Assembly (NCBI RefSeq): GCF_003324165.1
Contig: NW_025407889.1
Coordinates: 17,785 to 81,784 of the forward strand
Origin: Naegleria lovaniensis
Taxonomy: Eukaryota; Heterolobosea; Eutetramitea; Acrasida; Naegleriidae
Length of the DNA: 64,000 nt
Reading direction: 5' to 3'
Every line of letters begins with the position of its first letter. Within the stretch, counting starts at the first letter, position 1. The position numbers and the translations under genes were made by a program. Shown in pieces: positions 2,114 through 34,362 of this stretch. The notes under the pieces were generated by a model. The model was not told the DNA's origin, ran no database searches, and worked only from the letters and a program-made list of their open reading frames with translations.

Positions 2114-4225
2114 TTATTCATCCAGGTCCAGTCCAGCGAATCGAAACATGACTGAAAAGACATCGCTTGCATCAATATTGTCAAAATTTTGATCAGGATT
2201 TTCCAATTTCATCTTCTCTAAATGATACTCTGCAAGAGCTTGCTTTCTCAAAATTTCTGTCTCAATCAAGCCACCTACATCTTGCCTTCGTTTAGCATTC
2301 TCACTCAACTTGGTAACAAACTCAATCTTGGCATTTTTAACATTGCTTAATAGCTCTAAAGAAAGTGGCCCAGAGTTTTTGATACGTTGCTCTTCGACCA
2401 AACCTTCAAATAAGAGTTCCAACATCTCCATGCCTGTTAAGAGTTGAGACAGAGTTTCTTTGTTTGTTCGAAATTTTTCCAAAATCTTTTTCACATCCAA
2501 AGGAGTATTCTCGGAAGAAATGGATGTGTTATATACTGGATATTCCTCTTTTTCTGGCTCCAACGATGCAACATTGGAGTTTTCATTTTGTAAAAGCAGC
2601 GAGGGTTGTATCATTTCACTGTGTGAAATGTCGCTAGTCAATGAGAGAATATTCGAAGCAACCATTTCACTATTTGTTTGTTGTTGCAAATAAGTCAAAG
2701 CTTCAATGGCTTTGATTAATTGTGAGTTTTCTTTTTGGATCAGTCTATATTTGTTCGAAAGTAATTTCAATGCACGCAAATCATCATTCATATTGTCACA
2801 CGAGGAAAGATGTGAAAAATACTCAACTCTCAGTGAACATGCCATAATCAAAGCCTTTGTGGCACAACAAGGTAAAAAGCTAAACAATTCATGTTTCGTC
2901 AGTTCAATCACTTCTCTGGAAACTCTCAAAATGGCTTTCACATTTTTCTTTTCACAATTCGTTAAAATTTCCAAATGAACTTGCTTTGCAACCAGAGAAG
3001 AGAATAAAAATATTAACGAGTTCTTTTTACGAGCTGCCGTCATGATCAGATCTGTCATTGCAACAAATATCTCATGAATGGTCATTAATTGATGATACGT
3101 CTCATTTGAAAGACATCGACATGTTGTTGCATTCAATTTATATCTTTTCAGCTTGAACATGGATGCCATCTCAAATTCATCAAAGATAAATGTTTCTGGA
3201 TTCAATTCCTCAATAAAATACAACTCATGAAATTTTGTTTGAGATTCTAAGAGGAAAGCAGAAAGATATTGACTGTTAATATTTGGTAATGTCATTGTGC
3301 TTCTATGACCGTTCGTGGACGAGAATGAATTGCAGCAGAGACGATAACATTCTTTGATATATGGTTCCAACTTGGCTCTCACAGTCATGTACATGGCTCG
3401 AGATTTCGTTTTCTCTCCATTTCCTAACATGTAATCAGCCATAAAATTCATGGCAACCAATACACTTATTGAATCCACTTCATCAAAATATTTTCCAATG
3501 ATTTGTTTTCCATTCATAAATAATTGATCTGAAACTTCTCGAAGAATTCCCATTTGTTGCAAACACACTGCTTGCATTGTTTGTAAAACAGCAACCTCTT
3601 TTTCCAACTCACAGGACACTTGATATGGTTGTGTTTGAAACCACAATTGCTCATTGAGCTGGAAATCCAATGCTTTCTCTAATTTGCTTCGATCATACAC
3701 TGGATATCCCAATGCAGTAATATGGTAATAAACGTCCAACGCCTGGGTTGCTGAAAATCTATAATTCATTTGATGTTGTAATAGCATTTCATTAGAAGAG
3801 ATGACTGCTGTTATTGATTCTGTACAACTCGTTCCATCGTGGTTAGTTGCTGGTGTCTTATTTACATGATTATTGGAATTTCTTTGTTTGTTAGAAGTTA
3901 AGTGCGGTTGTAGATAGGGGTGATAGCCTCGATGATGAATTACAGTTGAATTTCCTTGTTTTGATGAAATGATCTTTTGAGAATATTCATCATTAATAAA
4001 CACAATTTCATCAATAGCAGATGCAGATTGATTGGAATTTGGAGCCTTTCTTCTTCCCGATGATGATGGCTCATAAATACATTTATATCCTCTTTTGATA
4101 CAATATTGACATGATGGTAATGTTTTTGAACATTTCCGATGTAATTGTCTGCAAGACAAACAACTATGAGGACTCAACGTTGATTGTGTTGCAACGGAAG
4201 AAGACGCAACACCAGAGTGAGACAT
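2114..4225 (-). CDS. Zn(II)2Cys6 (Gal4-type) transcription regulator
   Basis: Single-exon protein of 703 residues. The N-terminus carries a binuclear zinc cluster with Cys22, Cys25, Cys32, Cys39, Cys42 and Cys49 (spacing C-x2-C-x6-C-x6-C-x2-C-x6-C), the DNA-binding fold typical of fungal Gal4 regulators, followed by a basic GRRK patch. The rest is low-complexity Ser/Asn/Gln sequence and then a long, mostly helical region of about 500 residues with no motif I recognise; a fungal-type regulatory domain is possible but not seen. The start is chosen at MSHSGV just before the cluster. It is divergent from the zinc-knuckle gene, with about 150 bp of shared promoter. Nuclear location and DNA binding are inferred from the cluster alone; target genes are unknown. 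Confidence 0.82.
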   Translation of the reverse strand: MSHSGVASSSVATQSTLSPHSCLSCRQLHRKCSKTLPSCQYCIKRGYKCIYEPSSSGRRKAPNSNQSASAIDEIVFINDEYSQKIISSKQGNSTVIHHRGYHPYLQPHLTSNKQRNSNNHVNKTPATNHDGTSCTESITAVISSNEMLLQHQMNYRFSATQALDVYYHITALGYPVYDRSKLEKALDFQLNEQLWFQTQPYQVSCELEKEVAVLQTMQAVCLQQMGILREVSDQLFMNGKQIIGKYFDEVDSISVLVAMNFMADYMLGNGEKTKSRAMYMTVRAKLEPYIKECYRLCCNSFSSTNGHRSTMTLPNINSQYLSAFLLESQTKFHELYFIEELNPETFIFDEFEMASMFKLKRYKLNATTCRCLSNETYHQLMTIHEIFVAMTDLIMTAARKKNSLIFLFSSLVAKQVHLEILTNCEKKNVKAILRVSREVIELTKHELFSFLPCCATKALIMACSLRVEYFSHLSSCDNMNDDLRALKLLSNKYRLIQKENSQLIKAIEALTYLQQQTNSEMVASNILSLTSDISHSEMIQPSLLLQNENSNVASLEPEKEEYPVYNTSISSENTPLDVKKILEKFRTNKETLSQLLTGMEMLELLFEGLVEEQRIKNSGPLSLELLSNVKNAKIEFVTKLSENAKRRQDVGGLIETEILRKQALAEYHLEKMKLENPDQNFDNIDASDVFSVMFRFAGLDLDE

Positions 4226-6658: not shown

Positions 6659-8269
6659 CTAATGAATACTATTTTGTAAATATAACGGATTCACCTCTCC
6701 TTGCATGATGAGAGACAATAGCGTTTCTTCCGTAGTGTAGGTGTGTTTTTTACGAAGTGTTTCCATGTCACTCTCTGGAGTAATGTATAAAAATTCATAA
6801 ATCGTATGATTACTGATATAACCATTAACACAATGAGGACATGTATCTGCCTTATTCTTGGAAGGTTCTGGAGGCATGCAAACCACTGGAACTTCTTTTC
6901 TTCGATTGACCTTCTCAGTTGTGACCACCCGATACATGGTCAATAATTTCAGTGCTCGATTGTCGGTTTTTCCGTAAATGACCATTCGCTGCTTACAGTG
7001 AGGACAAAGTATGGGTACACGTTTGACTCCTAAAATGCATTTAAAAGCTCGAAATTGCGTTTTTAAATCAATATTCATGGATCTCAATCTTTCCAACAAG
7101 TCAATCGGTGATGAAGCGTGTCCTGTACTAATTACTTGAACACCACTGAGAGCAATGGAGGTGGCTGTTTCGAAATCTACTTTGTGTCTCAACTCACCAA
7201 AATAAATTATATCTGGATCATGTTTGAGTAGGTTGTTGGCTGTCTCGGCCAAGGATCGTTGCTTTCCCTGAATTTCTTGAAACATGTCAATTTGACATAC
7301 ATTAAACAATCCATGAGTCTGTAAATTCACTTCAACAGGATATTCTAAAGAATAAATAGCAAGTGCTTTTTCTGCAGACATTTGACAAAGAATTCCTCTC
7401 ACAATTGTGGATTTTCCTGTTTAGATGGTTTAAGATCCAATTCAATATTAGCAGAATAGATTATTGGTCCAATAATAGAAGTATGATATCAATATTTTCC
7501 AAAATAACAATTATTCGTGCACAGCACACATACCTGATCCAGTGGGGCCCACAATGCATACATGTCCTCCTTGACCTTTTTTACTTCCAAATACCTTGCT
7601 AATATCTGGAGGATCTCCTTTTGGTTGTTCCACTAACTCACTTCTGGGTACGAGTGGTTTTGTACTTGTGTAAACTCTTTCATTTTCTCTCGAAAATAGG
7701 GTTGCTTTGACGTCTGTGTCTGGAAAGCCAATTTTCCACTTATTTTGCTTCCGATTCAAATCTTCTGCATTGGAATGACTCATCGTTTGATAGGACGATT
7801 GAAAGGATTTTGAAAAGCTCTCCGATGATTGTCTATTTTGAGGATTTTTCATGGCATGAAAGAGAGCCTTCACTGGCAAAATTATGTTTTCATCTGATTC
7901 ATCGTGGAGCGTTTGAGATGGATTAAGATTTTGAAAAGATGATGAACGATGACCCTTCAAATCGGAACTACCATGATCATTATTGGTAAAATCACTAGAA
8001 TGACCGTTTGGTTTCAATTCATGACTAACTTGTTGGTTCGGGCGTAAATTTGATGATGAAAATTGTTTGTTGCTATTTTGATGATGATCATCATCGGAAT
8101 GAGTATTGACGCTCGTTAAAGAATCTTGAACTTTAAACACATTCGGTATTAAATGTCTCAATATTGTTGAAACTCTGGATCGTTTCATATCTTCATTCCA
8201 ACTCCCTCGCGTTTCTGTTGTATCCGTTTCTTTTTGGCTTTCATGACTCCCAGCCAATCGTTTCATCAT
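6659..8269 (-). CDS. gspE: GspE-type secretion ATPase of the mitochondrial type II secretion system
   Basis: Two exons, 8269-7534 and 7416-6659, give 497 residues; the splice rebuilds the Walker A motif GPTGSGKST (residues 241-249), so the join is certain. Exon 2 carries the type II/IV secretion ATPase core: an Asp-box-like stretch, Walker B in DPDIIYFGELR with Glu320, and the His box ISTGHASSP. A tetracysteine zinc motif (Cys383, Cys386, Cys438, Cys441, then NGYIS) is diagnostic of GspE/PilB and absent from TadA or PilT. The spacing between the two Cys pairs (51 residues) is longer than I recall for bacterial GspE. The first 230 residues are low-complexity Ser/Asn/His sequence and show no clear N1E/N2E domains. 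Expected role: energising a miT2SS in the mitochondrion with GspD, GspF and GspG encoded elsewhere. Confidence 0.9.
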
Positions 8270-11719: not shown

Positions 11720-11858
11720 TTTTTGTTTTGTAATTCGTTGTTGTATTGGATTTGGAGGGAAACCAAAAATAAAAGAGGCTCTCCTTTTGCTATCCACATC
11801 AAAATAAACGCCACTTGGAACAAACATTAGCGATTCATGTAACCTTGAAAACAAAATG

Positions 11859-11931
11859 ATGAAGAGATGGATTTGAACCATCGACCTCGCGTTTGAACAA
11901 CACACACTCTCCCACGCTGAGCTATCTCCAT
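11859..11931 (-). tRNA. tRNA-like gene with atypical anticodon loop (copy 1)
   Basis: 73-nt cloverleaf on the minus strand. The acceptor stem is ATGGAGA paired with TCTTCAT. The A-box-like TAGCTCAGCGTGG and B-box GGTTCAAATCC match RNA polymerase III internal promoters. The T stem GATGG/CCATC is perfect, and TTTT follows the 3' end. The anticodon arm pairs TGTGT with ACGCG (two wobbles) and the seven-base loop reads TGTTCAA, so position 33 is G instead of the almost invariant U. The formal triplet would be TTC, yet the body does not look like tRNA-Glu. A similar element lies at 14779-14850. It could be a divergent functional tRNA, a pseudogene or a tRNA-derived repeat. Confidence 0.55.
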
Positions 11932-12322
11932 CAAAAAAATGTCTAAAACTAATTCTTTTACCCTCATTTCACCGTGCTCATAGGTCTCCTATGGTTATAA
12001 CATTTTTCGGATCTTTCACACACCACTCACATGTTTTCGTAATTGTAGTTTTTGGATTGTTTCAGAGTTGCTGAAAGTCGAGTCGAAGTTGAAATAAATT
12101 CTCTCAAGGGACATTGAATCGAGTGAGAATAATTGGACATGCCACAACATTGGCAAATAGCATGGTCCAACAAGAAGGGATTCATTGGTTTGCATGAGTG
12201 ACTATGTGGTGTCCAAGTACTTGAGTGGCGACCACTCGAGTTCTAACAACATTTCACTTTTCACAACGGGAACCACAAGAATGGAGGGTGGTGTCGTCTG
12301 GGTCAACGAAAATCGTCAAAAA

Positions 12323-14684
12323 ATGTGTCCACGTTTACGCCTTGTCCAATATTTGTGTTTTTTAAATCTTCTCGTTGTGTGTGTATTCCTTGCACCGGTG
12401 GTCACATGTGCCTACAGTATCACCACTATAGTAGGAACAGGAGCTCAGGGTTCAGGAGGCGATTCTGGAAACGCTTTATCTGCTCAACTGTATTGGCCAA
12501 AGGGAGTATATGAATACAATAATGAAATTTATATTGCAGATACTTATAACCATAAAATTAGAAAGGTTTCACAGACAGGTATCATTACAACCATTGCAGG
12601 AACAGGTAATCAAGGATATTCAGGAGATTTGGGACTTGCCATAAATGCTCAACTTTCACTTCCAACCTATGTGTACGTGGATTCCACAGGCGTATATGTT
12701 GCTGATGCTGGAAATAATTGTATTCGACGAATTCAGAATGATAGAATTGAAACCGTCTTTTCCACTGGACTTCAAAATCCTTTGTTCGTTAGTTTCAATT
12801 CGAATCGCGACATGTACATTGTTGACGCGGATAACAATGTCTTGAAAAAAGTTTCCAACGGTGTTGTGTCCAACGTGGTAGGTTCAGGAACGAGAGGTTT
12901 CGGTGGGGATGGCAGCTCTGCAACCTCTGCCTTGTTAGACCGACCAGCAGGTGCCTACATGTCCTCATCCTCGAATGAAATTTATATTAGTGACACTTAC
13001 AATAATAGAATTAGAAAAGTTTCATCTTCAGGTTTCATTTCCACTCTTGCAGGATCCACTCAAGGATTCAGTGGAGATGGTAACTTGGCAAGAGATGCTC
13101 GATTGGATCATCCTTCGAGATTGCTGGTCAACTCGAAAGGCGTGTTGTTTTTTGCAGACACCAATAACCATGTCATTCGAAAAATATCCGGTGATATCAT
13201 TACAACCATTGCAGGAATTGGTGGATCCAATGGATTTAATGGTGACTCGGCCAATGCTCGAAATGCTCAATTATTTTACCCTCATGACATTATGTCAAGA
13301 TGGAAGTTTTTACATTGCGGATTCTTTAAATAATAGAATTAGAATGTTACGTCCCCTCTGTAATGGAGTGGTTTCGAATGATCCATCCGTGTGCTCTGGT
13401 CGTGGCCAATGTCTCGATGAGGACACCTGTACCTGCACACAACCTTCCTTGTACGGTGGTCCATATTGTGAACTTCCCAAATGCAACAACAAGCTCTCGA
13501 ACGAGACTGGAGTCTGTAATGCCAGAGGAACTTGCTCATCACCCAATACGTGTACTTGTACTGAACCTGCCAAATTTGGAGGAAACGACTGTGAATTTCC
13601 CAAGTGTTTTGGAATTCTTCAAACGATGGCATCTACGGTGTGTAGTGGTCATGGTTCTTGCGACTCTCCAGACGTGTGTCGATGTAATGCCAAATGGACA
13701 GGTCCAGCATGTGACATGCCTATCTGTTTTGGAATGAATCAAAATGAAACGAGTAGGGTTTGTAGTGGGCGTGGAACTTGTAACGGTCCTGACCTTTGTG
13801 TCTGCAATTCAGGATTTACAGGTCAATCGTGTGAAAAGTCAATTCCTGTTCTCTTGGTCAACAAGATGTTCATTTCTCAAGGACAAACCATTACAATCAC
13901 TACCAACGAGTTGCAAGCGTCTGATCCTGTCGCCAATGACTCTCAACTTCAGTTCATTGTTAGTAACATGCTTTACGGCAGATTTGAATTGAGTTCTGTG
14001 AGTGTCAATGTTTTTTCACAACAACAGGTGAAGGATGGTCAAGTGAAATTTGTGCACACTGGAACAAACAATCAACCACCTACTTTCCAAATAACAGTTT
14101 CCAACGGTGTAGTTCAAACTTCTCAACAATCTCCTTCCATTACTTTCAATGTTGGTCCATATGTGAATGACAAGATGCTCGATCAGACCGTGCAAGTTGA
14201 TCAAGAATTCAAAATTCCAGTATCGAAAAATATGTTCATTGATCCAGATGGAGAAACTTTGACCTCTTATGCATCGTTGGAAACTGGACAACCACTTCCA
14301 AGTTGGATTAAATTTGATGAAAAGACATACTTTCTCAGTGGAAAGAGTTCAGAACCAAGTACGAACAAATTCAAATTCTACGTAGTGGATAGGGGAAATT
14401 TGAAAGCAGAATGTGTGTTTTCATTTAAGGTTGTGGCAAATTCAGGAAGTTCAGGAAATTCTGGAAACTCTGGAAATTCAGGTCTTGGAGTTGCTGATAT
14501 TGTTGGAATTGCTGTCGGTATTTCTACACCAATTCTTACGATTATTGGACTTCTTGTTGGGGGAGGAGGTATTTGGCAATGTGTTAAACATTTTAAGAAA
14601 CCAAAGTCTACTTTATCACCTGCAACGACTGAAATTTCACTTGAAGATACCTCAGCCACGGTGGCTCCAAAACCCGAAGTATGA
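12323..14684 (+). CDS. NHL-repeat / EGF-like single-pass surface receptor (reading frame interrupted)
   Basis: Starts at 12323 (TCAAAAAATG) with a signal peptide ending near VVTCA. Six NHL-type beta-propeller repeats follow, each with variants of TIAGTG..GFSGD and YIADTYNNRIRK. At about 13290-13300 the frame changes; the sixth repeat continues in another frame (DGSFYIADSLNNRIRM). Restoring a lost TG (ATGTG read as ATG) would give normal repeat spacing. Downstream are four to five EGF-like modules (VCSGRGQC..., TCTCTEP, VCSGHGSC...), a cadherin-like dystroglycan-type module (about 14165-14440), a Ser/Gly/Asn linker, one membrane helix (GIAVGISTPILTIIGLLVGG) and a short cytoplasmic tail. Probably adhesion or recognition at the cell surface. 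The break is either an assembly error or a true lesion. Confidence 0.75.
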
Positions 14685-14778
14685 AATCATCGTTTAAAAT
14701 AAATAAGAAATAGAGCCATTGTTACTGGGAAAAAGGATATGAATCCATTCCAATGAATGTTGATGTGATAAAACGAAA

Positions 14779-14850
14779 ATGAAGAGAAGGATTTGAACCA
14801 TCGACCTCGCACAGAATCGTGCACGCTCTCCCGTGCTGAGCTATCTTCAC
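14779..14850 (-). tRNA. tRNA-like gene with atypical anticodon loop (copy 2)
   Basis: 72-nt relative of the element at 11859-11931, also on the minus strand. It shares the acceptor 3' strand TCTTCAT, the A box TAGCTCAGCACGG, the B box GGTTCAAATCC and a following TTTT. The anticodon stem is strong (TGCAC with GTGCG) but encloses only six bases, GATTCT, and the T stem has one mismatch (GATGG/CCTTC). No U33 is present, so I cannot name an amino acid. It may be a decaying tRNA or a tRNA-derived RNA gene. Confidence 0.5.
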
Positions 14851-15055
14851 CAAAAAGGTTGCGCCTTATTCTGTCAACGTAACAAACTCATCTGCATTTC
14901 CATAAATGAAACAGGAATGCTCATTTCTTGTTGGAGAGGAGGTGAAAAACAAATTTGTTTTTTTATTGGAAAAGAAAATGAAGTGACAAGCTGTCAAGGC
15001 ATTTTGTTTCATCACTCCAGAGCACTCATTGACATTGAATTTCAAGCATTTTCAC

Positions 15056-21413: not shown

Positions 21414-22632
21414 CTAATGAATGACTTCTTCTTCATCATTGCTTGTAGTTGCTAGTGAAGGAGATGCATTTGTCTCATCACTAGGAATGAGAGGTTCATA
21501 CCAGTCCTTTGTGAATCCTGCTTTCAATCTCAACTCATGATTGAACGGTGGACGCAACACTCCTGTGGCTGTATGGTTTCGCACCAAATGATGAAATCGT
21601 TGTCGAATTAAATTCTCGTCCACTTCCTCCTCTTGTGTGCTATCTTGTTGTTGCATTTCTTCTCTGTTCTTTCTTCGTTCCTCTCGAATGGCATGGGCAC
21701 AACAAAACTTGAACCATTTCACTCCTTTCTGCACATGACTCACTTCTTCTTCCAATATTACATTCAACAAGTCAGCACTTTCAAAATCTTTGGCTTCTCT
21801 CAATCTTCGAATATTGTTTGGGGTCATGTCCAAGCCACGTGCCTCATGAACTGTGTGTAAAATACATAAACGTAACATGACATCATTTTCAGTGGCAGTA
21901 GCGGCTGCCCATAATCCTCCATGTGCTGGGAACTGACCATAAAAACTTGCTAATTCTGTCAATCGTTTGCTTAACATTTTGAAATGTCGACATTCATCCA
22001 ATGCAACATAAAACCAATCAATGAGAAATTCGTCAGGTAAATAATCGAGAATTGCGAATCGACATAAAATGTCCCAACTCAAATCAATAGCGTAAGATTC
22101 CATATGACAAATGGAACTACATTAGATCAAGTGTATAATTTAAAAGAGATTTAAAATGATTATTTGAGAGGCGTGATCAAATAGTTCAATTTTCAAGATC
22201 CCATTCATTTAAAATTATCATTATATTCCATATTGTGTCATATCAACGTGTCGTTCACAATCAACAAATTGATGTAAAAGAAATTAATATTAATAAATTG
22301 TTCATTAATTTGATAAATCATTTCCTGTTCAACACAAATTCTCCAACTTACTGAATCAAAGCTGCTCTATTTTCCACAGTTCCTGCTCCTCTTTTATGTA
22401 ATTGTTTCGGATGAACAATGGTGATATTATCGGGACGAGCCGGAACACTCGGAGGTCTCACTTTTACCATTTCATTGGGATCCAAAGGCCTCACACGTAT
22501 TTTTCCATCTTCATAAAGTTGTTGAGCGAGAAATGAGAGATTAACTTTTTCATCTGTATCTTTGGTATTCAAAACTTGAATTCCGAAGGAATATAAATCA
22601 TGAAAAGTTGATGAAGCCTCCATGGATAACAT
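21414..22632 (-). CDS. DUF455 ferritin-like (MiaE-related) protein
   Basis: Two exons, 22632-22352 and 22116-21414, give 327 residues. The splice (GTAAGT to GTAG) restores the family signature ENRAALIHSICHMESYAIDL, which neither exon holds alone. Further PF04305 features follow: DWFYVALDECRHF, YGQFPAHGGLWAAA, VHEARGLDMTP and EEEVSHVQKG. The Glu and ExxH residues are the expected ligands of a di-iron centre in this ferritin-like four-helix fold, related to the tRNA hydroxylase MiaE; the substrate in eukaryotes is not known to me. An acidic/Gln insert lies near residue 260. The start has AAAGAAAAATG. Head-to-head with the DHHC gene, now separated from it by the inserted element. Confidence 0.88.
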
Positions 22633-22813
22633 TTTTCTTTAATGTAATTATTAAATTACAAATAGAACATTAACGCAACCAGAGTTTGACTCCAATCGAG
22701 TTTCGCTCCAAAATTCATTGATGAAAAACATGTTGGAATGACATGTCAAATACTCGCCCTTTCTATCCATCTTCCAAAAGCATACGTTCCATCATCCTGC
22801 CCATCGTTTTGAA

Positions 22814-23932
22814 AGTTTACAAAAAAAATCTAATTAGTTTATTGTTAGCACCATTGGTGCTGGTAAAACTATTAAACGCACGTTCATGCGGTTGACTTTG
22901 GCTTGAACTGTCTTGAAATTGGTTTCAATTCTGTGGAGCAAATAAATCTTGTTGAGGTTAGTCTATTCAATTCATTGATGTCATTAAGCTTGTATTCAAC
23001 AATTAGGTATGAGTAGGTATCTTTTACCTTTTTCTTAATACTGAGTCTCTCTTTTTCGAATTTGATGGTTGTGTTCTTGCATAGTGTTTTAATTGCTTTG
23101 GTAATTGCAAGTTCACTTGTTGATTCAGGAAGTATGCAATTTGCTATGTGCGTTTCTTGCTTTCTTTTGATAATTTCAAATCCTTGTTCAATCAATTCAG
23201 TGTTGGGATTCTTGGAATCAAAGTTAATTTTAAGTTTGTACAAGGTTTCTCGAGGATTGAATGTTAGGCACATTTGTTCAATTCTACATTTCTTTTGGTT
23301 GATTGAGTACTTGATGAGAGTTTCGATGTTCGAAATTGATTTTTCTTTGGCTATTAATGTTGTTGGAGATGATGTAAAAATCATTGGTGAAGCGAAATAT
23401 TTTGTTTGTGTTTTTTCTGTCATGGCTGGTGAATTAAGTTTCTTTAGTATTTGTTGTTGAGTTTCGGCATTTTGAATGACTAAATTGAGAGTGTTGGTCT
23501 TGCTGTCTGGGATGTACCAGTGTTCAATGACTGATTCAAATCTTTTTAGAATAAATTTAACAAATGAGGATGAGATATTGCTGTCCGAGTAGATTGAGAT
23601 TGAATTAGTTTTGTTCTTGGGTTGACCAGTATGTTCAATTTTGAGTTGAGGAGTTTCTAAATGTTTAGTTTCCTGTTTTGGTTGTTGGGTTGGTTCAGGT
23701 TGAGGGTGAATTTTTTGCGCTTCATTTTGAGCTTGAGAAATTTTGATGGTTGGTTCAGGTTTTGGTTGAGTTGGTTTTGTAACTTCAATTAATTGCTGTA
23801 CTGTTTGTGTGAGCGTCTTAACAGCGTCTTGCAGTTCTTTGATTTGTTGTTGTTGTTGTTCTAGGTGGTTTATGAGTTCTTTGATGGTTTGTTGTTGAGT
23901 CATTTTTTTCGCGTCGAGTTTACAAAAAAAAT
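22814..23932 (-). mobile_element. ORF-bearing insertion with 16-bp target-site duplication (probable non-autonomous non-LTR retroelement)
   Basis: The exact 16-mer AGTTTACAAAAAAAAT occurs at 22814-22829 and 23917-23932, bracketing a 1,087-bp segment. In element orientation (minus strand) it begins CGACGCGAAAAAAATG and starts its ORF 13 bp from the 5' end. The ORF spans nearly the whole length. Its stop overlaps a second ATG in ATGA (22887-22884), which opens a 17-codon ORF ending 5 bp before the 3' repeat copy. A palindrome AGCACCATTGGTGCT (22847-22861) lies near the 3' end. There are no terminal inverted repeats, LTRs or transposase. A target duplication of this length and an ORF1-ATGA-ORF2-like layout fit a LINE-derived element lacking the reverse transcriptase ORF. 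Confidence 0.65.
22884..23903 (-). CDS. ORF1-like protein of the inserted element
   Basis: 339 residues, single exon, lying wholly inside the repeat-bounded insertion. Layout: an N-terminal Gln-rich coiled coil (residues 1-45, TIKELINHLEQQQQQIKELQ), a Pro/Gln/Glu linker (45-95), then a basic, mostly beta/alpha domain (about 100-330) with many Lys and Ile. A coiled coil followed by basic nucleic-acid-binding folds is the general plan of LINE ORF1 proteins, but I see no RRM signature, CCHC knuckle or known homologue. No reverse transcriptase, endonuclease or integrase motif is present. The alternative is a host gene that happens to be flanked by the repeat. Confidence 0.6.
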   Translation of the reverse strand: MTQQQTIKELINHLEQQQQQIKELQDAVKTLTQTVQQLIEVTKPTQPKPEPTIKISQAQNEAQKIHPQPEPTQQPKQETKHLETPQLKIEHTGQPKNKTNSISIYSDSNISSSFVKFILKRFESVIEHWYIPDSKTNTLNLVIQNAETQQQILKKLNSPAMTEKTQTKYFASPMIFTSSPTTLIAKEKSISNIETLIKYSINQKKCRIEQMCLTFNPRETLYKLKINFDSKNPNTELIEQGFEIIKRKQETHIANCILPESTSELAITKAIKTLCKNTTIKFEKERLSIKKKVKDTYSYLIVEYKLNDINELNRLTSTRFICSTELKPISRQFKPKSTA

Positions 23933-25339
23933 GTCTTCATTGCCCGCAGCAAACAACGTGAATCAAGACGAGCAAGAAATTGAAATTATTCAACATCATT
24001 CCATTCATCATCATGAATCGTCGGAACATCCCTTGCACCAGGAAGAAGAGGATGATGAATCTCATCGTTCTTATGGCAACTCGGGAGTGATGATGGGAAA
24101 TAGATTGAATAACCGATCTTCGGAATTTGAAAAGAAACCCTTGTTGATGAATTCTGATTCTTCCCAACCTTCGGATCAGACTATAACATCACCTTTGGCT
24201 GGGATCGGGAACAAGGTTACACAATTGTCTGTAGATTCTCAAAATTTCTTTGATAAATTGGAAGATAAGAGAGTGAGCATGTCTCCACTCGATTCGCTCT
24301 ATGATTCAAAATTTGGATTTATTGTTTTGAAAGGTGCAAAATATTGCATGAGAATATTTGGACTTTTCATGGTGATGGTTGCTGTGGTTCTCTTATCTTT
24401 AAATTTTTATTTTTACTTTGCAGTGACATTGCCCATGATGAACACACAAATGTGGACCTACACATTTCATTTACTCCTTGGATTGTATATAGCACTTTCA
24501 ATTTCATTTAACTATGTTCAATGCGTTCGAGTGAGTCCAGGTGTGACTCCAAAAGAATGGGTTGATTCTCTCGATAATGTGGAGACCTTTAGAAATGATA
24601 CAAAATCTGTGCCAGGAAAAAATTGGAGCAAGTGGTGTGGACGGTGTCAACAACCAAAACCCATTCGAGCTCATCATTGCCATATTTGTGATGTTTGTGT
24701 GTTGAGAATGGATCATCATTGTCCATGGTTAAATAATTGTAAGTGTTTTTGCATGATGTGGCGTTGTGTGTGAATAGTTGATAATGATAATCGTTCGTGA
24801 TGCATCACGCATGTCATATGAACTACAAATTTCACTTGTCGTTGCAACAACAACAAAAACATTCAGGTGTTGGACTTCAAAATCACAAATACTTTGTTGG
24901 ATTTATTGGATTTTTAGCTCTTGCTGCATTGTACAATTTTGTCATGATTTCACTTGGAGTGTTTGGTTTCTACACACCAGATCCCATCCTGTACGCAACA
25001 TGGAGTGGATGGCTGACATTTGTGATGGTTCTCTCAGGTTCTCTTGGACTCACCATGACTACTTTCACAGGATGGCATGTGTATCTTGTGTTGACCAATC
25101 AAACCACGATTGAATTCCAATTTAACAAAATGAAGGCCGTGAGAAGTAAGTCTGGAGGTTCTGACAATCCATACAATATTGGAATGAAGAGTAACATACA
25201 GCAAGTGTATGGTTTGGCCACTCCTGAAGATTCTGTATTGGGGTGGGCAAAATTGTTAATGTTGCCCAACCTTCAAAAGTCGCCTGTGGATGGCATCAAT
25301 TATCCCACCAACCAGCCAAAAGGAGGCGAAAACGTGTAG
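23931..25339 (+). CDS. DHHC-type protein S-palmitoyltransferase
   Basis: Two exons, 23931-24738 and 24867-25339, encode 426 residues; the splice rebuilds DHHCPWLNNCVG. Membrane helices flank the catalytic domain: two before it (around FGLFMVMVAVVLLSLNFYF and FHLLLGLYIALSISF) and two after it (YFVGFIGFLALAALYNFV and WLTFVMVLSGSLGLTM). The Cys-rich zinc-binding domain ends in Asp261-His262-His263-Cys264, with Cys264 the acyl carrier. A TTxE motif (NQTTIEFQ) follows the last helix. It acylates cytoplasmic Cys residues of membrane proteins. The ATG overlaps the right copy of the 16-bp repeat, so the inserted element replaces everything upstream of position -14 relative to the start. Confidence 0.94.
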
Positions 25340-28361: not shown

Positions 28362-28488
28362 TAAATGTGACAATCTGCTCCTCAAGATCGTTCAAGTTCG
28401 AACCGCAGGCACTGCGAGACAATATTCTGGCCTTAAATGAACTGCTCAATTTATGAAACCTCAAACTCAAATCTTCAACATCAAAAAA

Positions 28489-30171
28489 ATGGCGAGACAG
28501 AAACAGAACCTTTCATCCACACGAAATCGTTTCCGAACAAAGGAGAACTCTCATTTTGCCATGATTGATACTTTTGAAACACAATTTGATTTTGATCATT
28601 ATGAATATGCACATTATGTGGTCAACCGAAGTAAAGTCTATTGCTTGGTGCCGGTCGGAGTGATTTTTCAACAGTTATGTCCAAACTTCCTTTCCAAAGA
28701 ATTTCCTAAATACATCTTGAATTGTGATCTTACTCAGACGCCACCTCCGAACTATAGGCCTTCTCATCTATTGATTGTGCTTAAACAAAAAGAGATAGCT
28801 CCGAATGATTGGGATAATTATACATGCTCTCGCTTTGGCCTTCTGCGACTGGGAAAGGTTGGTTTTGAGTGCAATCCTGAAAGAATCTTTCTCTTTAAGG
28901 ATACCTGGTTTGGAGGATATTACGATGATGTAACTTGTTACATCACCCAATGGAATAAGCAGAAAGCTGAGCTTTTTTTGGCCAGCCCACGTTATCCGAA
29001 AAGAGCTTACATACATATCCATCCTTCTTCAATTTATCAGAGTTCCATAACTATTGATGGGCAAAATAATTATTCATTTTTATATGTAATGGCTGAGCGC
29101 CATTTACCTCAAGTAGTGGATGAAACGAATGGCGACACTGTCTTTTATCTGAAATTTCCAGAGAACGACGTCCATTCCCAGAGATTTGAACTTTGTCAGA
29201 TGACATTTTGCTCGAGCAAGTATGATATGCCAAATGTAAAAATTATTTGTGAATTAGAAGGATTCTCTAGTGATGGATATTACGAGTGTCTGGAGATGGT
29301 GGGAACTAACAAAACCAAAGTAGCTTTTTTACTGAGTCATAATTCGAGTAAATTTAAGTGGTCTGGTAATCCACTAGAGTTGACATCTGGATTATATGAG
29401 TTGAAAGAAAATGAGGAAGTCAAGCTAAAGAAGTTGAATTTTACCAATTTTAATACGTATTTCACACAAAATATGAAGACTTTAAACACATGTAAATTAG
29501 TGAATGGAAAGTATTTAGTAATGGGAAGAATGAGCAATGGCGTCGAGTCTACTGCCAAAGAACTATCGTCACATGCAATCAATAATGACAACATTGTTCA
29601 ACACCCCACTTTTGATCGTTTATTTGCTGAGGAAATTATCTGGATTGTTCTTGATTTAAATATGAAGACAGTGAAGAGAGTTTTCCCAAGAGAGGATCCA
29701 ATTGCATCCTCTTCATCCACAAATCATCATGAAAAGAGATCAAAAAAACAAAAGAAAACAAGCAATCAACCACAATTTTTATTTATTCAAGATGGAGATT
29801 TGAATGGAGGTTTTGCAAATCCATTTCCTCGCAATTCGTCAAAAAATCAACTCAGTGATACCCTTAATTACATTTCAGAGGACAAGAGATTCAAGAAATA
29901 CGATTTACAAATTCCAAAATCGATTATGCTTGATTCAAACTTGACACTGTGCTCAATGAGACCTTTTCCAAGCAATCCAGATCTTTTTCAGATCATGGTA
30001 CACATTACATACCACAGCAGTGCGTACTATTCTAGTGAGATTTATGGCCGTTTGTTTCAGTTTTATTTCAGAATGAGAGAGGAGTGCAGTCCTTGTTTTC
30101 TTGAAAATCCTGTGCAGTTTTGTGACCTTCAATTTATGAACCGTCAATGTAACCATGCAAATAGTTTGTAA
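28489..30171 (+). CDS. Lineage-specific protein of unknown function
   Basis: 560 residues from ATG 28489 (ATCAAAAAAATG); an in-frame ATG 36 bp upstream has a poorer context. No signal peptide, membrane helix or known domain was found. The composition is rich in aromatic residues and Cys; regular short motifs suggest a beta-rich fold, possibly a propeller, but this is impression only. A basic, disordered patch (HHEKRSKKQKK) lies near residue 420. The last 100 residues are repeated almost intact in the fragment at 30342-30680, so the gene belongs to a family that duplicates locally. Confidence 0.6.
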   Translation: MARQKQNLSSTRNRFRTKENSHFAMIDTFETQFDFDHYEYAHYVVNRSKVYCLVPVGVIFQQLCPNFLSKEFPKYILNCDLTQTPPPNYRPSHLLIVLKQKEIAPNDWDNYTCSRFGLLRLGKVGFECNPERIFLFKDTWFGGYYDDVTCYITQWNKQKAELFLASPRYPKRAYIHIHPSSIYQSSITIDGQNNYSFLYVMAERHLPQVVDETNGDTVFYLKFPENDVHSQRFELCQMTFCSSKYDMPNVKIICELEGFSSDGYYECLEMVGTNKTKVAFLLSHNSSKFKWSGNPLELTSGLYELKENEEVKLKKLNFTNFNTYFTQNMKTLNTCKLVNGKYLVMGRMSNGVESTAKELSSHAINNDNIVQHPTFDRLFAEEIIWIVLDLNMKTVKRVFPREDPIASSSSTNHHEKRSKKQKKTSNQPQFLFIQDGDLNGGFANPFPRNSSKNQLSDTLNYISEDKRFKKYDLQIPKSIMLDSNLTLCSMRPFPSNPDLFQIMVHITYHSSAYYSSEIYGRLFQFYFRMREECSPCFLENPVQFCDLQFMNRQCNHANSL

Positions 30172-30341
30172 GGAAGAATAATCTTTTAGCAAGTGTGACT
30201 AAGGTGTAACTTATTTGATGTAAAATGATCGCTGTTTCAAAACATGATTTGTGTAACATGATTACAATATGGAGTTTTGACACCATAACCCTTTAATATT
30301 CCTTCTTTGTTTTTACAAAACGTGATTTTCAATATCTCGAG

Positions 30342-30680
30342 ATGAAAACATTCTGTATTCCTCACAACTCTTCAACAAATCAACTTGGTGATAACCTTAA
30401 TTACATGTCACAGGACAAGAGATTCAAGAAATACGATTTACAAATTCCAAAATCGACTATGCTTGATTCAAACTTGACACTGTGCTCGATAAGACCTTTT
30501 CCAAGCAATCCAGATCTATTTCAAATCATGCTCTTTAAACGCAGACAGGCTGTGTATTATTCGAACGAGTGTCATGGTCAATTGTTTAGATTTTATTTCA
30601 GAATGAGAGAGGAATGTAGTCCTTGTTTTATTGAAAAGCCATTGAATTTTTATGACATTCAATATAAGAGTCACGTTTAG
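30342..30680 (+). pseudogene. Truncated tandem copy of the upstream gene's 3' end
   Basis: Encodes 112 residues whose DKRFKKYDLQIPKS, SNLTLCSIRPFPSNPDLFQI and REECSPCF stretches match the C-terminus of the protein at 28489-30171. DNA identity is very high over about 30400-30535 against 29880-30000 (only a handful of differences by eye) and lower towards both ends. The 450 codons that precede this region in the parent are missing. It starts with an ATG, so a short product is possible, but a decayed tandem duplicate is more likely. Confidence 0.75.
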
Positions 30681-32368: not shown

Positions 32369-34362
32369 TTAAGGTTGTGTTTTGCGCATGGTGAAATAAT
32401 CAATGACTTCTCCTCGATCGTTGAATTGTTGGAAATTCACAGTGAAGGTCGTGAGTGAGTCACGCTTAATTTTTAAAAGTCCAAATCCTTCATCATTGTT
32501 ATATCTCATGTAATTCCACTTGATGTTGGTGTTGAAATCGTGAGTTGGATCCATTCCTCCCAAACTACCTCCACTTCCATCTACAATGTAAATGGTGTCC
32601 TGTGGATTAATATAATTATGTGGATCTTTGAGTTGATCTTGTTCAATGGTTCCATTATAAATTGGATATTGTCTCTCTGTTCAGAAAAAATTGTGTAAGG
32701 AGAAAAATGTCAAACGAATCGATATTTCAATTGTTTAAATGTTTCATAAATATTTCAATTGTAAACGTTTCATAAATATTTCATTTAACAATGTTTTAAC
32801 AATAAGATCATGAAAAATGGTATTGACTCACGAGTAGCACTTACCATACGCATGTACATGTCCACAAATGGCCATATCTACTCGATACTTTTTATAATCA
32901 TTCTCAAATAATTCCTGTAATATCTTCGAGTCACCGACGACATTGCCGTTGGCATCAGAAAATCCTTTTTCAGTTGAATAAATTGGTCGATGACCAACAG
33001 TCATGAGGAAGGGTGTTTGAGTTCTGTTAGCATTCATGATGGCATTCTTGACATAGGAGACATGATCTCCTTGGAAAACTGGTTGAAATGGAGCATTGGG
33101 ATAATTGGTCTCTGTATCAATCGCTACAATTCTCACTGGTCCAAAATCGAAATGATACCACATATTGTGCCCATATTTGGTATCATTTCTGAGTGGCATC
33201 CAAAATTTGTGATTGTAAGCAGTAAAGTTGTATTCGAACGAGTGTCTATTTGTTGTTGTTGGAATTTTGGATTCATTAAATTTCATATTAAATGTGTCAC
33301 ACATTAAAATTGAATTGTTAACATCGAAAAGAACGAAAAGATTGGAAAATTCTTGTTAAAACTATCATTCCTAAACACTTACTTGTCAGGTCCTAATCTT
33401 GGTCCATACTCATGGTTACCTACAGTAGTCATGTAAGGCACATAGGGCTGAACTCCTTCCCAATGCTCAAAAAATTTATCCCACACATACTGATACATGA
33501 ATCCGGGATATGAATCAGCATAGCTGATATCTCCTACATGGTAGATGAAGAAATTTCCATTTCCAGTGTTATCTTTAACAATTTTTGAAATTCTCTCAAT
33601 ATTGGATTCACAAAAGAAAATTCCCATATCACCAAAGATGACAATGGTGACCTCAGAAATGTCTTTGCTTCTTGTTGTAAAGTAATGAGTCGAATCCGAT
33701 TGAACAGTAAATACAGGTTTTCCATTCACAACATTTCCAAATCCAACCCGATAATAATATGTCGTGTCAAAAGTTAAATTATTCAACAAAATGGCATGAT
33801 CAAATCCAGTGACACTCGACTCTCCATACGAGGTCGTGACTGCTCCAACTCCATACCACTGCGGATTGGATTGTAATTCTTGCTCGCTTTTTCCAATAAT
33901 TGCCAATGGCTTTCCAACCTTGTTTTCATCATATCCGAACGTATGAAATTGAATGATCATTTCATTAGGATTTTGAGTTAATGCCAAATGAATGTACCTC
34001 ACCGAGAAATCACTACTTGAGGCTTGCACTCGGTGTTGCTTTACTTTTTCAAGCTGTCTCAGTAATAACGGATGGCGCAAGTCTTTCTCCAATTTCTTCC
34101 ATGAAGACTCAGAATGATGATTAGATCCGAGGAGTGAGGAAGGCATGTTTGTATGCTCTCTGATGTGGATTGGTATGGTTTGTATTTCCGTTTGTTTAGA
34201 TTCATGATGATGATGAACAAGTTCAATTTTTGAGTGATGGGGCTGCTGCTGATGTGCTTGCGCAACGAGAGAGCAAAATGATGAACACAACACGGATACA
34301 GCAAGAATTGTTGCCAACATGCGGATCCAAACCCCTAGAATGGAACCACTCTGCTTGTTCAT
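32369..34362 (-). CDS. Purple acid phosphatase (metallophosphoesterase)
   Basis: Three exons, 34362-33383, 33245-32845 and 32676-32369, give 562 residues. Splicing restores the join PDKHSFEYNF and the motif HVHAYERQYPIYN. The signal peptide is at the N-terminus (MLATILAVSVLCSSFCSLVAQA). An N-terminal fibronectin-like domain (about 150-270) is followed by the five metal-binding blocks: FGDMG, GDISYAD with the Tyr that gives the purple colour, GNHEYG, VGHRPIY and GHVHAYER. The C-terminal domain includes VDGSGGSLGG. It should hydrolyse phosphate esters in the secretory, lysosomal or extracellular space using an Fe/metal pair. The tempting acceptors nearer the first donor all run into stops. Confidence 0.93.

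Follow-up and report, generated by a model that had tools for sequence, protein, structure and literature searches.

A 1.1-kb ORF-bearing insertion with a 16-bp target-site duplication at the start codon of a DHHC palmitoyltransferase gene in Naegleria lovaniensis

Introduction

What is the segment of about 1.1 kb, bearing one long open reading frame (ORF), that lies between two identical 16-bp sequences at the start codon of a DHHC palmitoyltransferase gene, and how did it get there? The locus is part of a 64-kb stretch of Naegleria lovaniensis DNA (the window, to which all positions refer). The initial annotation had read the segment as a LINE-derived element that lost its reverse transcriptase ORF (ORF2) and kept ORF1, which it called an uncommon kind of parasite. 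The insertion of LINEs has been described as a target-primed mechanism (PMC2881922). By automatic repeat classification, LINEs account for 0.25% of the assembly in N. lovaniensis and for 1.85% in N. fowleri (PMC6125883, PMC6831594), and because LINEs are reported in Naegleria assemblies, a partner LINE in the host genome is plausible.

Results and Discussion

The insert and its boundaries

Using exact searches of the whole 64-kb window, we found AGTTTACAAAAAAAAT exactly twice, at both ends of the segment (Table 1). Allowing up to two mismatches, no further match was present on either strand of the window; in a shuffle control, at least two matches at this tolerance were obtained in 6 of 100 shuffles. 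On its sense strand, which is the minus strand, the insert begins with CGACGCGAAAAAAATG (the first bases being CGACGCG) and ends with CTAATTAG, the fuller 3' end reading ...AGCACCAATGGTGCTAACAATAAACTAATTAG. When the flanks were joined by script without the insert, they gave ...CGTTTTGAAAGTTTACAAAAAAAATGTCTTC..., an unremarkable A-rich leader that runs into the DHHC ATG.

No LTR was found in the insert. Inverted repeats of at least 12 nt joining its ends are absent (shorter ones were checked by eye only), and apart from the 16-bp direct repeat no repeat pair of at least 12 nt joins both ends. Moreover, no obvious promoter is visible in the insert, where the leader is only 13 nt long. A duplication of 16 bp has the usual length for LINE-type insertions and is unusual for cut-and-paste DNA transposons.

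Table 1. Positions of the insert, its parts and the neighbouring genes in the window
Feature	Position	Strand	Remarks
Target-site duplication, left copy	22814..22829		Insert's 3' end (sense = minus); 16/16 match to 23917-23932
Target-site duplication, right copy	23917..23932		Insert's 5' end; last two bases = first two of DHHC ATG
Insert	22830..23916	-	1,087 bp between repeat copies
Leader, insert 5' end to ORF ATG	23904..23916	-	13 nt; A-run before ATG
ORF1-like ORF	22884..23903	-	339 aa; 1,020/1,087 bp of insert including stop (94%)
Domain plan of 339-aa ORF (predicted)	22884..23903	-	Coiled coil 3-41, P/Q-rich linker 46-97, RRM-like 99-181, basic C-terminal 184-339
N-terminal coiled coil codons (residues 1-41)	23781..23903	-	AlphaFold helix 3-41, block pLDDT 84-94
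RRM-like codons (residues 99-181)	23361..23609	-	E99-106 H112-121 E126-130 E138-143 H146-156 H159-169 E174-181
Frame opened by overlapping ATG	22834..22887	-	17 codons then TAA; possible ORF2-start remnant
Predicted two-tier RNA stem-loop	22835..22871	-	Ends 5 nt before insert end; core = palindrome 22847-22861
DHHC palmitoyltransferase first-exon ORF	23931..24773	+	Pfam PF01529 E 4.6e-13; ORF as listed
5' part of DUF455 gene, divergent from DHHC	22348..22632	-	PF04305 E 2.6e-5, below curated cut-off

How much weight can the 16-bp repeat bear?

Direct repeats of this kind are not confined to the locus. Nine non-low-complexity direct repeats of at least 16 bp, spaced 300-5000 bp, were found in the window, the AGTTTACAAAAAAAAT pair included. 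A partial gene duplication near 29.9-30.6 kb accounts for four of them and the internal repeats of one gene for two; a seventh is common to two tRNA genes. Another, the exact 16-bp repeat TATTCGAACGAGTGTC, is found at 30558-30573 and 33231-33246, 2.7 kb apart, and looks like chance. We rejected this pair as a second insertion, as parts of several genes lie between its copies, and it is a useful control for claims of target duplication. An order-3 Markov model gave an expectation of 0.337 repeats per 64 kb at a spacing of 300-5000 bp, with at least one in 86 of 300 simulations, and of 0.073 at 300-1200 bp. Since a chance-like pair is present in the window and the simulations yield such repeats as well, the 16-bp repeat by itself is weak evidence.

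The position of the repeat, which brackets the ORF, is a stronger point than its length. Both AGTTTACAAAAAAAAT copies lie within 75 bp of the ORF ends. When 19,871 pairs of 75-bp stretches were drawn at random, at least 16 bp were shared in only one (pairs less than 200 bp apart were skipped, and that one pair was not inspected). Both copies have an A-run, with 7 bases in common upstream of it. Among 21 pairs of A-runs of at least 8 on the plus strand, one shares 7 further upstream bases; a shared A-run is not the explanation, since the other 20 pairs share at most 2. Overall, an insertion with a target-site duplication at the start codon, as the initial annotation had proposed, is well supported by the 16/16 match together with the flank and A-run controls. 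Its further statements, that the repeat occurs only twice in the window and that the segment has neither LTRs nor terminal inverted repeats, were confirmed at the tolerances given above.

The insertion site

The insert lies between the DHHC gene and a divergently transcribed DUF455 gene, a further stretch of which (21414-22103) matches PF04305 with an E-value of 6.3e-64. An intron of the DHHC gene, judged by eye, probably begins at 24739 with GTAAGT. With the insert removed, the listed DHHC and DUF455 starts are 195 bp apart. With it in place, the divergent start codons of the insert ORF and the DHHC gene are separated by only 27 bp, so that the former upstream region of the DHHC gene is no longer its direct neighbour. 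In one more divergent pair in the window, the listed starts at 4225 and 4299 are only 73 bp apart; hence, short divergent spacing is not decisive by itself.

At least four A directly precede the ATG at 9 of 29 start codons, those of the insert ORF and the DHHC gene included, and for this reason it is plausible that the original site is the right-hand copy and that the left-hand one arose by duplication. At 23898-23936 the two divergent start contexts, AGTCATTTTTTT and AAAAAAATGTCT, are near mirror images, being 92% complementary over 12 nt; the insert leader thus resembles the host leader at its landing site.

Coding signal and composition of the ORF

The claim that the segment is nearly filled by one ORF of 339 residues is borne out by its length (Table 1). 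The other five frames contain 12, 20, 26, 29 and 34 stops. The chance of 339 open codons at the composition of the insert is about 3e-10, with bases taken as independent, and because of this low value the ORF appears to be coding, or to have been so until recently.

In base composition the ORF is an outlier. The plus strand of the insert has an AT skew of -0.339 and a GC skew of 0.346, and none of 1,215 comparison windows of insert length, taken elsewhere in the window in 50-bp steps, reaches either value. The sense strand of the ORF contains 44.3% A and 10.8% G, while the 27 other ORFs average 33.0% and 19.5% (z 4.2 and -5.5), with a maximum of 38.0% A and a minimum of 16.6% G. Together with the insert ORF, this set makes up 28 of the 29 listed ATG ORFs of at least 200 aa; the omitted ORF (12975-14684) overlaps another one. 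When the 28 ORFs are ranked by how closely their synonymous codon usage resembles the pool, seven rank lower than the insert ORF. It is therefore not clearly foreign, and its oddity lies in base composition, not in codon preference. L1 typically has a sense strand rich in A.

These data bear on one alternative, that the ORF is an ordinary lineage-specific host gene and the 16-bp repeat a chance match between two A-rich leaders. Chance repeats do occur in the window (30558/33231), A-runs are common before start codons, and the starts at 4225/4299 are also close to each other. However, the copies bracket the ORF tightly (1 in 19,871) and share 7 bases beyond the A-run, the divergent start codons are only 27 bp apart, and the ORF is a composition outlier. 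We regard an ordinary host gene as very unlikely.

Predicted architecture of the protein

The protein was modelled with AlphaFold from its single sequence. The best of five models had a mean pLDDT of 49.9 and a pTM of 0.31, and the other four had mean pLDDT values of 34.8-42.3. An N-terminal coiled coil is a confident prediction; in the heptad register that fits best, hydrophobic residues occupy 9 of the 11 a/d positions. It is followed by a P/Q-rich linker and a region with the order beta-alpha-beta-beta-alpha-alpha-beta, which is predicted with moderate confidence to be an RRM-like domain (block-mean pLDDT 59-79 over residues 101-180). The basic stretch of 156 residues at the C-terminus (pI 9.5) contains all 5 cysteines of the protein; by eye, the translation has no CX2CX4HX4C pattern (CCHC knuckle). 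Modelled separately, the C-terminal half gave a mean pLDDT of 34.3 and no usable fold. Two further beta-alpha-beta-beta-alpha stretches in this half were considered, by eye only, as RRM-like repeats and were dropped, as the models give them no confident support.

In a Foldseek search with the model, RRM proteins top the 50 matches listed, with a best E-value of 0.0076 and all E-values above 0.001. Among the single-RRM matches, the best has a TM-score of 0.70 by target length and a probability of 1.00 at an E-value of 0.014. Aspartate kinases, elongation factors and protein kinases are also among the matches listed, and L1 ORF1p is not among these 50. In Pfam, which was run on 16 ORFs of the window in all, no family reached its cut-off with the whole protein or with three pieces of it, neither Transposase_22 (PF02994) nor an RRM model. 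A search of the PDB by sequence gave no match at E-values up to 10.

An ORF1-like protein is thus suggested by the coiled coil, the RRM-like domain, the basic pI and the A-rich sense strand, which together support this prediction. The initial annotation had described a coiled coil, a basic domain and no known family; the first two agree with the predicted helix 3-41 and the pI, and the third with the Pfam result.

The 3' end of the insert and the ATGA junction

The stop codon of the ORF, TGA, overlaps a second ATG as ATGA (22887-22884), as had been noticed from the letters. Because the second frame has only 17 codons, any remnant of an ORF2 could comprise no more than roughly its first few codons, and the 1,087 bp offer no room for a reverse transcriptase. 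This anatomy, consisting of the duplication, an intact ORF1, a 3' stem-loop and the ATGA junction, is also what a full-length LINE would leave if its ORF2 had been deleted after insertion, or if an internally deleted RNA had been inserted here once. The segment would then be a dead fragment and there would be no ORF1-only family, in line with the lack of a second copy in the 64-kb window. Yet a random deletion would need one breakpoint no more than about 20 nt from the ORF1 stop and the other just before the stem-loop, with ORF1 and both ends spared. We therefore consider a one-off deletion unlikely, although it is the alternative that we take most seriously.

No poly(A) is present at the 3' junction of the insert, where CTAATTAG directly abuts the duplication. 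AATAAA begins 14 nt before the insert end. The palindrome that had been pointed out near the 3' end was recovered as the 15-nt sequence AGCACCATTGGTGCT at 22847-22861. For the last 61 nt (22830-22890), a fold of -15.5 kcal/mol is predicted (z -2.79), and 3 of 200 shuffles were as good. Elsewhere, 87 of 3,134 windows of 61 nt are equally stable, and the predicted 3' fold is only moderately unusual here. Of 68 hairpins in the window, counted with a perfect arm of seven and a loop of up to five, three have at least 4 G/C in the arm, the core palindrome of this fold among them. L1 has been described as relying on poly(A), whereas stringent-type LINEs need a stem-loop of this kind (PMC4176376). Since a poly(A) tail is missing, the mechanism looks like that of a stringent-type LINE, with the predicted stem-loop at the 3' end, rather than that of L1.

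The 3' end also bears on whether a LINE could have made the segment as a retrocopy of a cellular mRNA, that is, a processed gene with a target-site duplication. The intronless ORF with a short leader and trailer between 16-bp duplications fits such a copy, and so does the position of AATAAA. However, the 3' junction has no poly(A). Moreover, the protein has neither an above-cut-off Pfam match nor a PDB sequence match, and its gene differs in composition from the 27 other ORFs of the window. A processed cellular gene is accordingly very improbable in our view.

From this one copy we infer that the repeat is duplicated target and not part of the element. A single copy cannot separate a target duplication from an element's own direct repeats, and the 3' hairpin, lying close to the end CTAATTAG, is reminiscent of elements whose termini form hairpins. 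The segment might thus be another kind of mobile element, for example a DNA element using a partner's enzyme, with 16-bp repeats that are element-borne or reflect an unusual target. Against this, one of the two repeat copies can well be read as the A-rich leader and start codon that the DHHC gene would naturally have, inverted repeats of at least 12 nt joining the ends are absent, and transposases are not known to have the predicted architecture of coiled coil plus RRM-like domain. Such an element seems highly improbable to us. A Helitron, suggested by the 3' hairpin, was rejected. Helitrons begin with TC and end with CTRR, whereas the insert begins with CG, ends with TTAG and has the 16-bp repeat at both ends.

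Searches for relatives

A second copy was sought in the rest of the window by blastn and tblastn, and nothing beyond chance was found (best E-values 0.058 and 0.33). Protein pattern searches with the ORF returned 12 stretches from viral contigs and 59 from prokaryotic genome contigs, none of them a relative. The ORF had no match in the phage collection and the insert DNA none among plasmids, and a 27-nt stretch of the insert 3' end gave 0 matches in viral contigs. Two weak matches were obtained in PHROGs, the better one, with an E-value of 0.0084, covering residues 6-45 in the coiled-coil part. All of these collections, whether viral, prokaryotic, phage or plasmid, are ill suited to finding relatives of a protist element, so that absence from them means little. 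Rfam returned five matches for 22700-24000 at E-values of 2 to 4.5, all far below the gathering scores. Among the matches listed in literature searches on Naegleria retrotransposons, transposable elements and non-LTR elements, titles and abstract openings mention no such element.

A LINE-type insertion that encodes only ORF1?

Taken together, we find it probable, by a modest degree, that a non-LTR (LINE-type) retrotransposon inserted here by target-primed reverse transcription, and that it encodes only an ORF1-type RNA-binding protein. A LINE-derived element that lost ORF2 is the best reading, and suggests a parasite that borrows the machinery of another element. Of the initial proposal, the insertion, the duplication and a predicted ORF1-like layout hold, while sequence homology to ORF1 was not found. 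Points against the LINE reading are the single copy, the weak Foldseek E-values, the poor AlphaFold model and the 13-nt leader. In addition, the nick that would have been made on the plus strand, AAAAAAAAT/GTC, is unlike the endonuclease site of L1, which is TTTT/AA.

Before the insertion, the DHHC and DUF455 genes would have been separated by about 195 bp with a single AGTTTACAAAAAAAATG. The RNA of the element would start near CGACGCG and be translated from the ATG in its A-rich, host-like leader. Its protein would oligomerise via the coiled coil and coat its own RNA through the RRM-like and basic regions. The endonuclease and reverse transcriptase of a partner LINE, acting in trans, would recognise the 3' stem-loop. 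A nick on the plus strand right at the DHHC start codon, within the A-rich leader (...AAAAAAAAT/GTC), would provide a 3' end from which the enzyme reverse-transcribes the RNA at the site; the duplication would result from a second nick, at a distance of 16 bp.

The logic of keeping ORF1 without the enzyme is known from other systems. HAL1 (half-L1) of mammals has been described as a non-autonomous LINE derivative with ORF1p only (PMC5753468), and the predicted coiled coil and RRM-like domain of the insert ORF recall ORF1 of the L1 type (PMC4120745). It differs from HAL1 in its predicted 3' stem-loop, in lacking a Pfam match to L1 ORF1 and in its heterolobosean host. HAL1 has poly(A), as L1 does. 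The insert has none and in this respect is not a HAL1 proper. HeT-A of Drosophila is described as a non-LTR element that keeps Gag/ORF1 without pol, its enzyme being thought to come from a partner (PMC5537684). This logic is common to the insert; however, HeT-A is telomeric and has poly(A), whereas the insert sits in an intergenic region and is flanked by a 16-bp duplication, and its ORF has no CCHC knuckle by eye.

As for the 3' end, stringent-type LINEs and their partner SINEs (UnaL2, ZfL2) are reported to use a stem-loop in the 3' tail rather than to rely on poly(A) (PMC4176376). Unlike these, the insert has no visible terminal short repeats, its stem-loop is a predicted one, and it bears an ORF, which a SINE does not. 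With respect to the protein, type II ORF1 has been described as having the order coiled coil, RRM and CTD (PMC4120745). The predicted order of coiled coil, RRM-like domain and basic C-terminal region is like that of type II ORF1 (L1 ORF1p), from which the insert ORF differs by the lack of a Transposase_22 match and by the P/Q-rich linker of about 50 residues between the coil and the RRM-like domain. Type I ORF1 combines an RRM with CCHC, and the insert ORF has no CCHC knuckle after its RRM-like domain.

Tentatively, and as a possibility that we would not yet count as probable, the insert may represent a heterolobosean family of ORF1-only non-LTR parasites. These would supply a coiled-coil/RRM-like coat protein in cis, capture the enzyme of a LINE in trans by means of the stem-loop, which takes the place of poly(A), and target A-rich start-codon leaders, a strategy like that of HAL1 and HeT-A that would have evolved independently outside animals. 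If further copies exist, this would be an ORF1-only LINE parasite far from animals, and a system in which to ask why an element keeps ORF1 yet gives up the enzyme, a question known mainly from HAL1 and HeT-A. If the segment is a one-off deleted LINE, it is ordinary. The insertion between the former upstream region of the DHHC gene, a conserved gene, and its start codon is a natural promoter-displacement experiment.

Other observations in the window

The GC content of the window is 0.33-0.42 in 2-kb steps, mostly 0.35-0.40; for three Naegleria species, values of 37, 37 and 35% have been given (PMC6125883). One ORF of the window encodes a G-alpha protein, whose best PDB match is Galpha7 6ne6, which we take to be the N. 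fowleri protein, with 311 bits (the next match has 137). Galpha7 has been studied in N. fowleri (PMC9283941).

The partial gene duplication mentioned above extends over 29879-30613 and concerns the gene at 28453-30171, whose 3' end has one partial, diverged copy about 530 bp downstream. At 14777-14851 (minus strand), ARAGORN predicts a tRNA with an unreadable anticodon that has 22 bp in common with tRNA-Asn at 11857-11932; it is possibly an intron-bearing or a damaged tRNA gene. At 2114-4225 (minus strand), a 703-aa ORF has a fungal-type Zn2Cys6 domain (Pfam E 8.6e-9) in a heterolobosean genome.

Heteroloboseans carry a mitochondrial type II secretion system. At 6659-8269 (minus strand), two ORFs resemble exons of a type II secretion ATPase of the bacterial type, which would presumably be the GspE of this system. 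The ORF at 6659-7381 matches T2SSE (Pfam E 4.1e-19), and the one at 7511-8269, without a Pfam match, has a Walker-A-like GPTGSG near its end.
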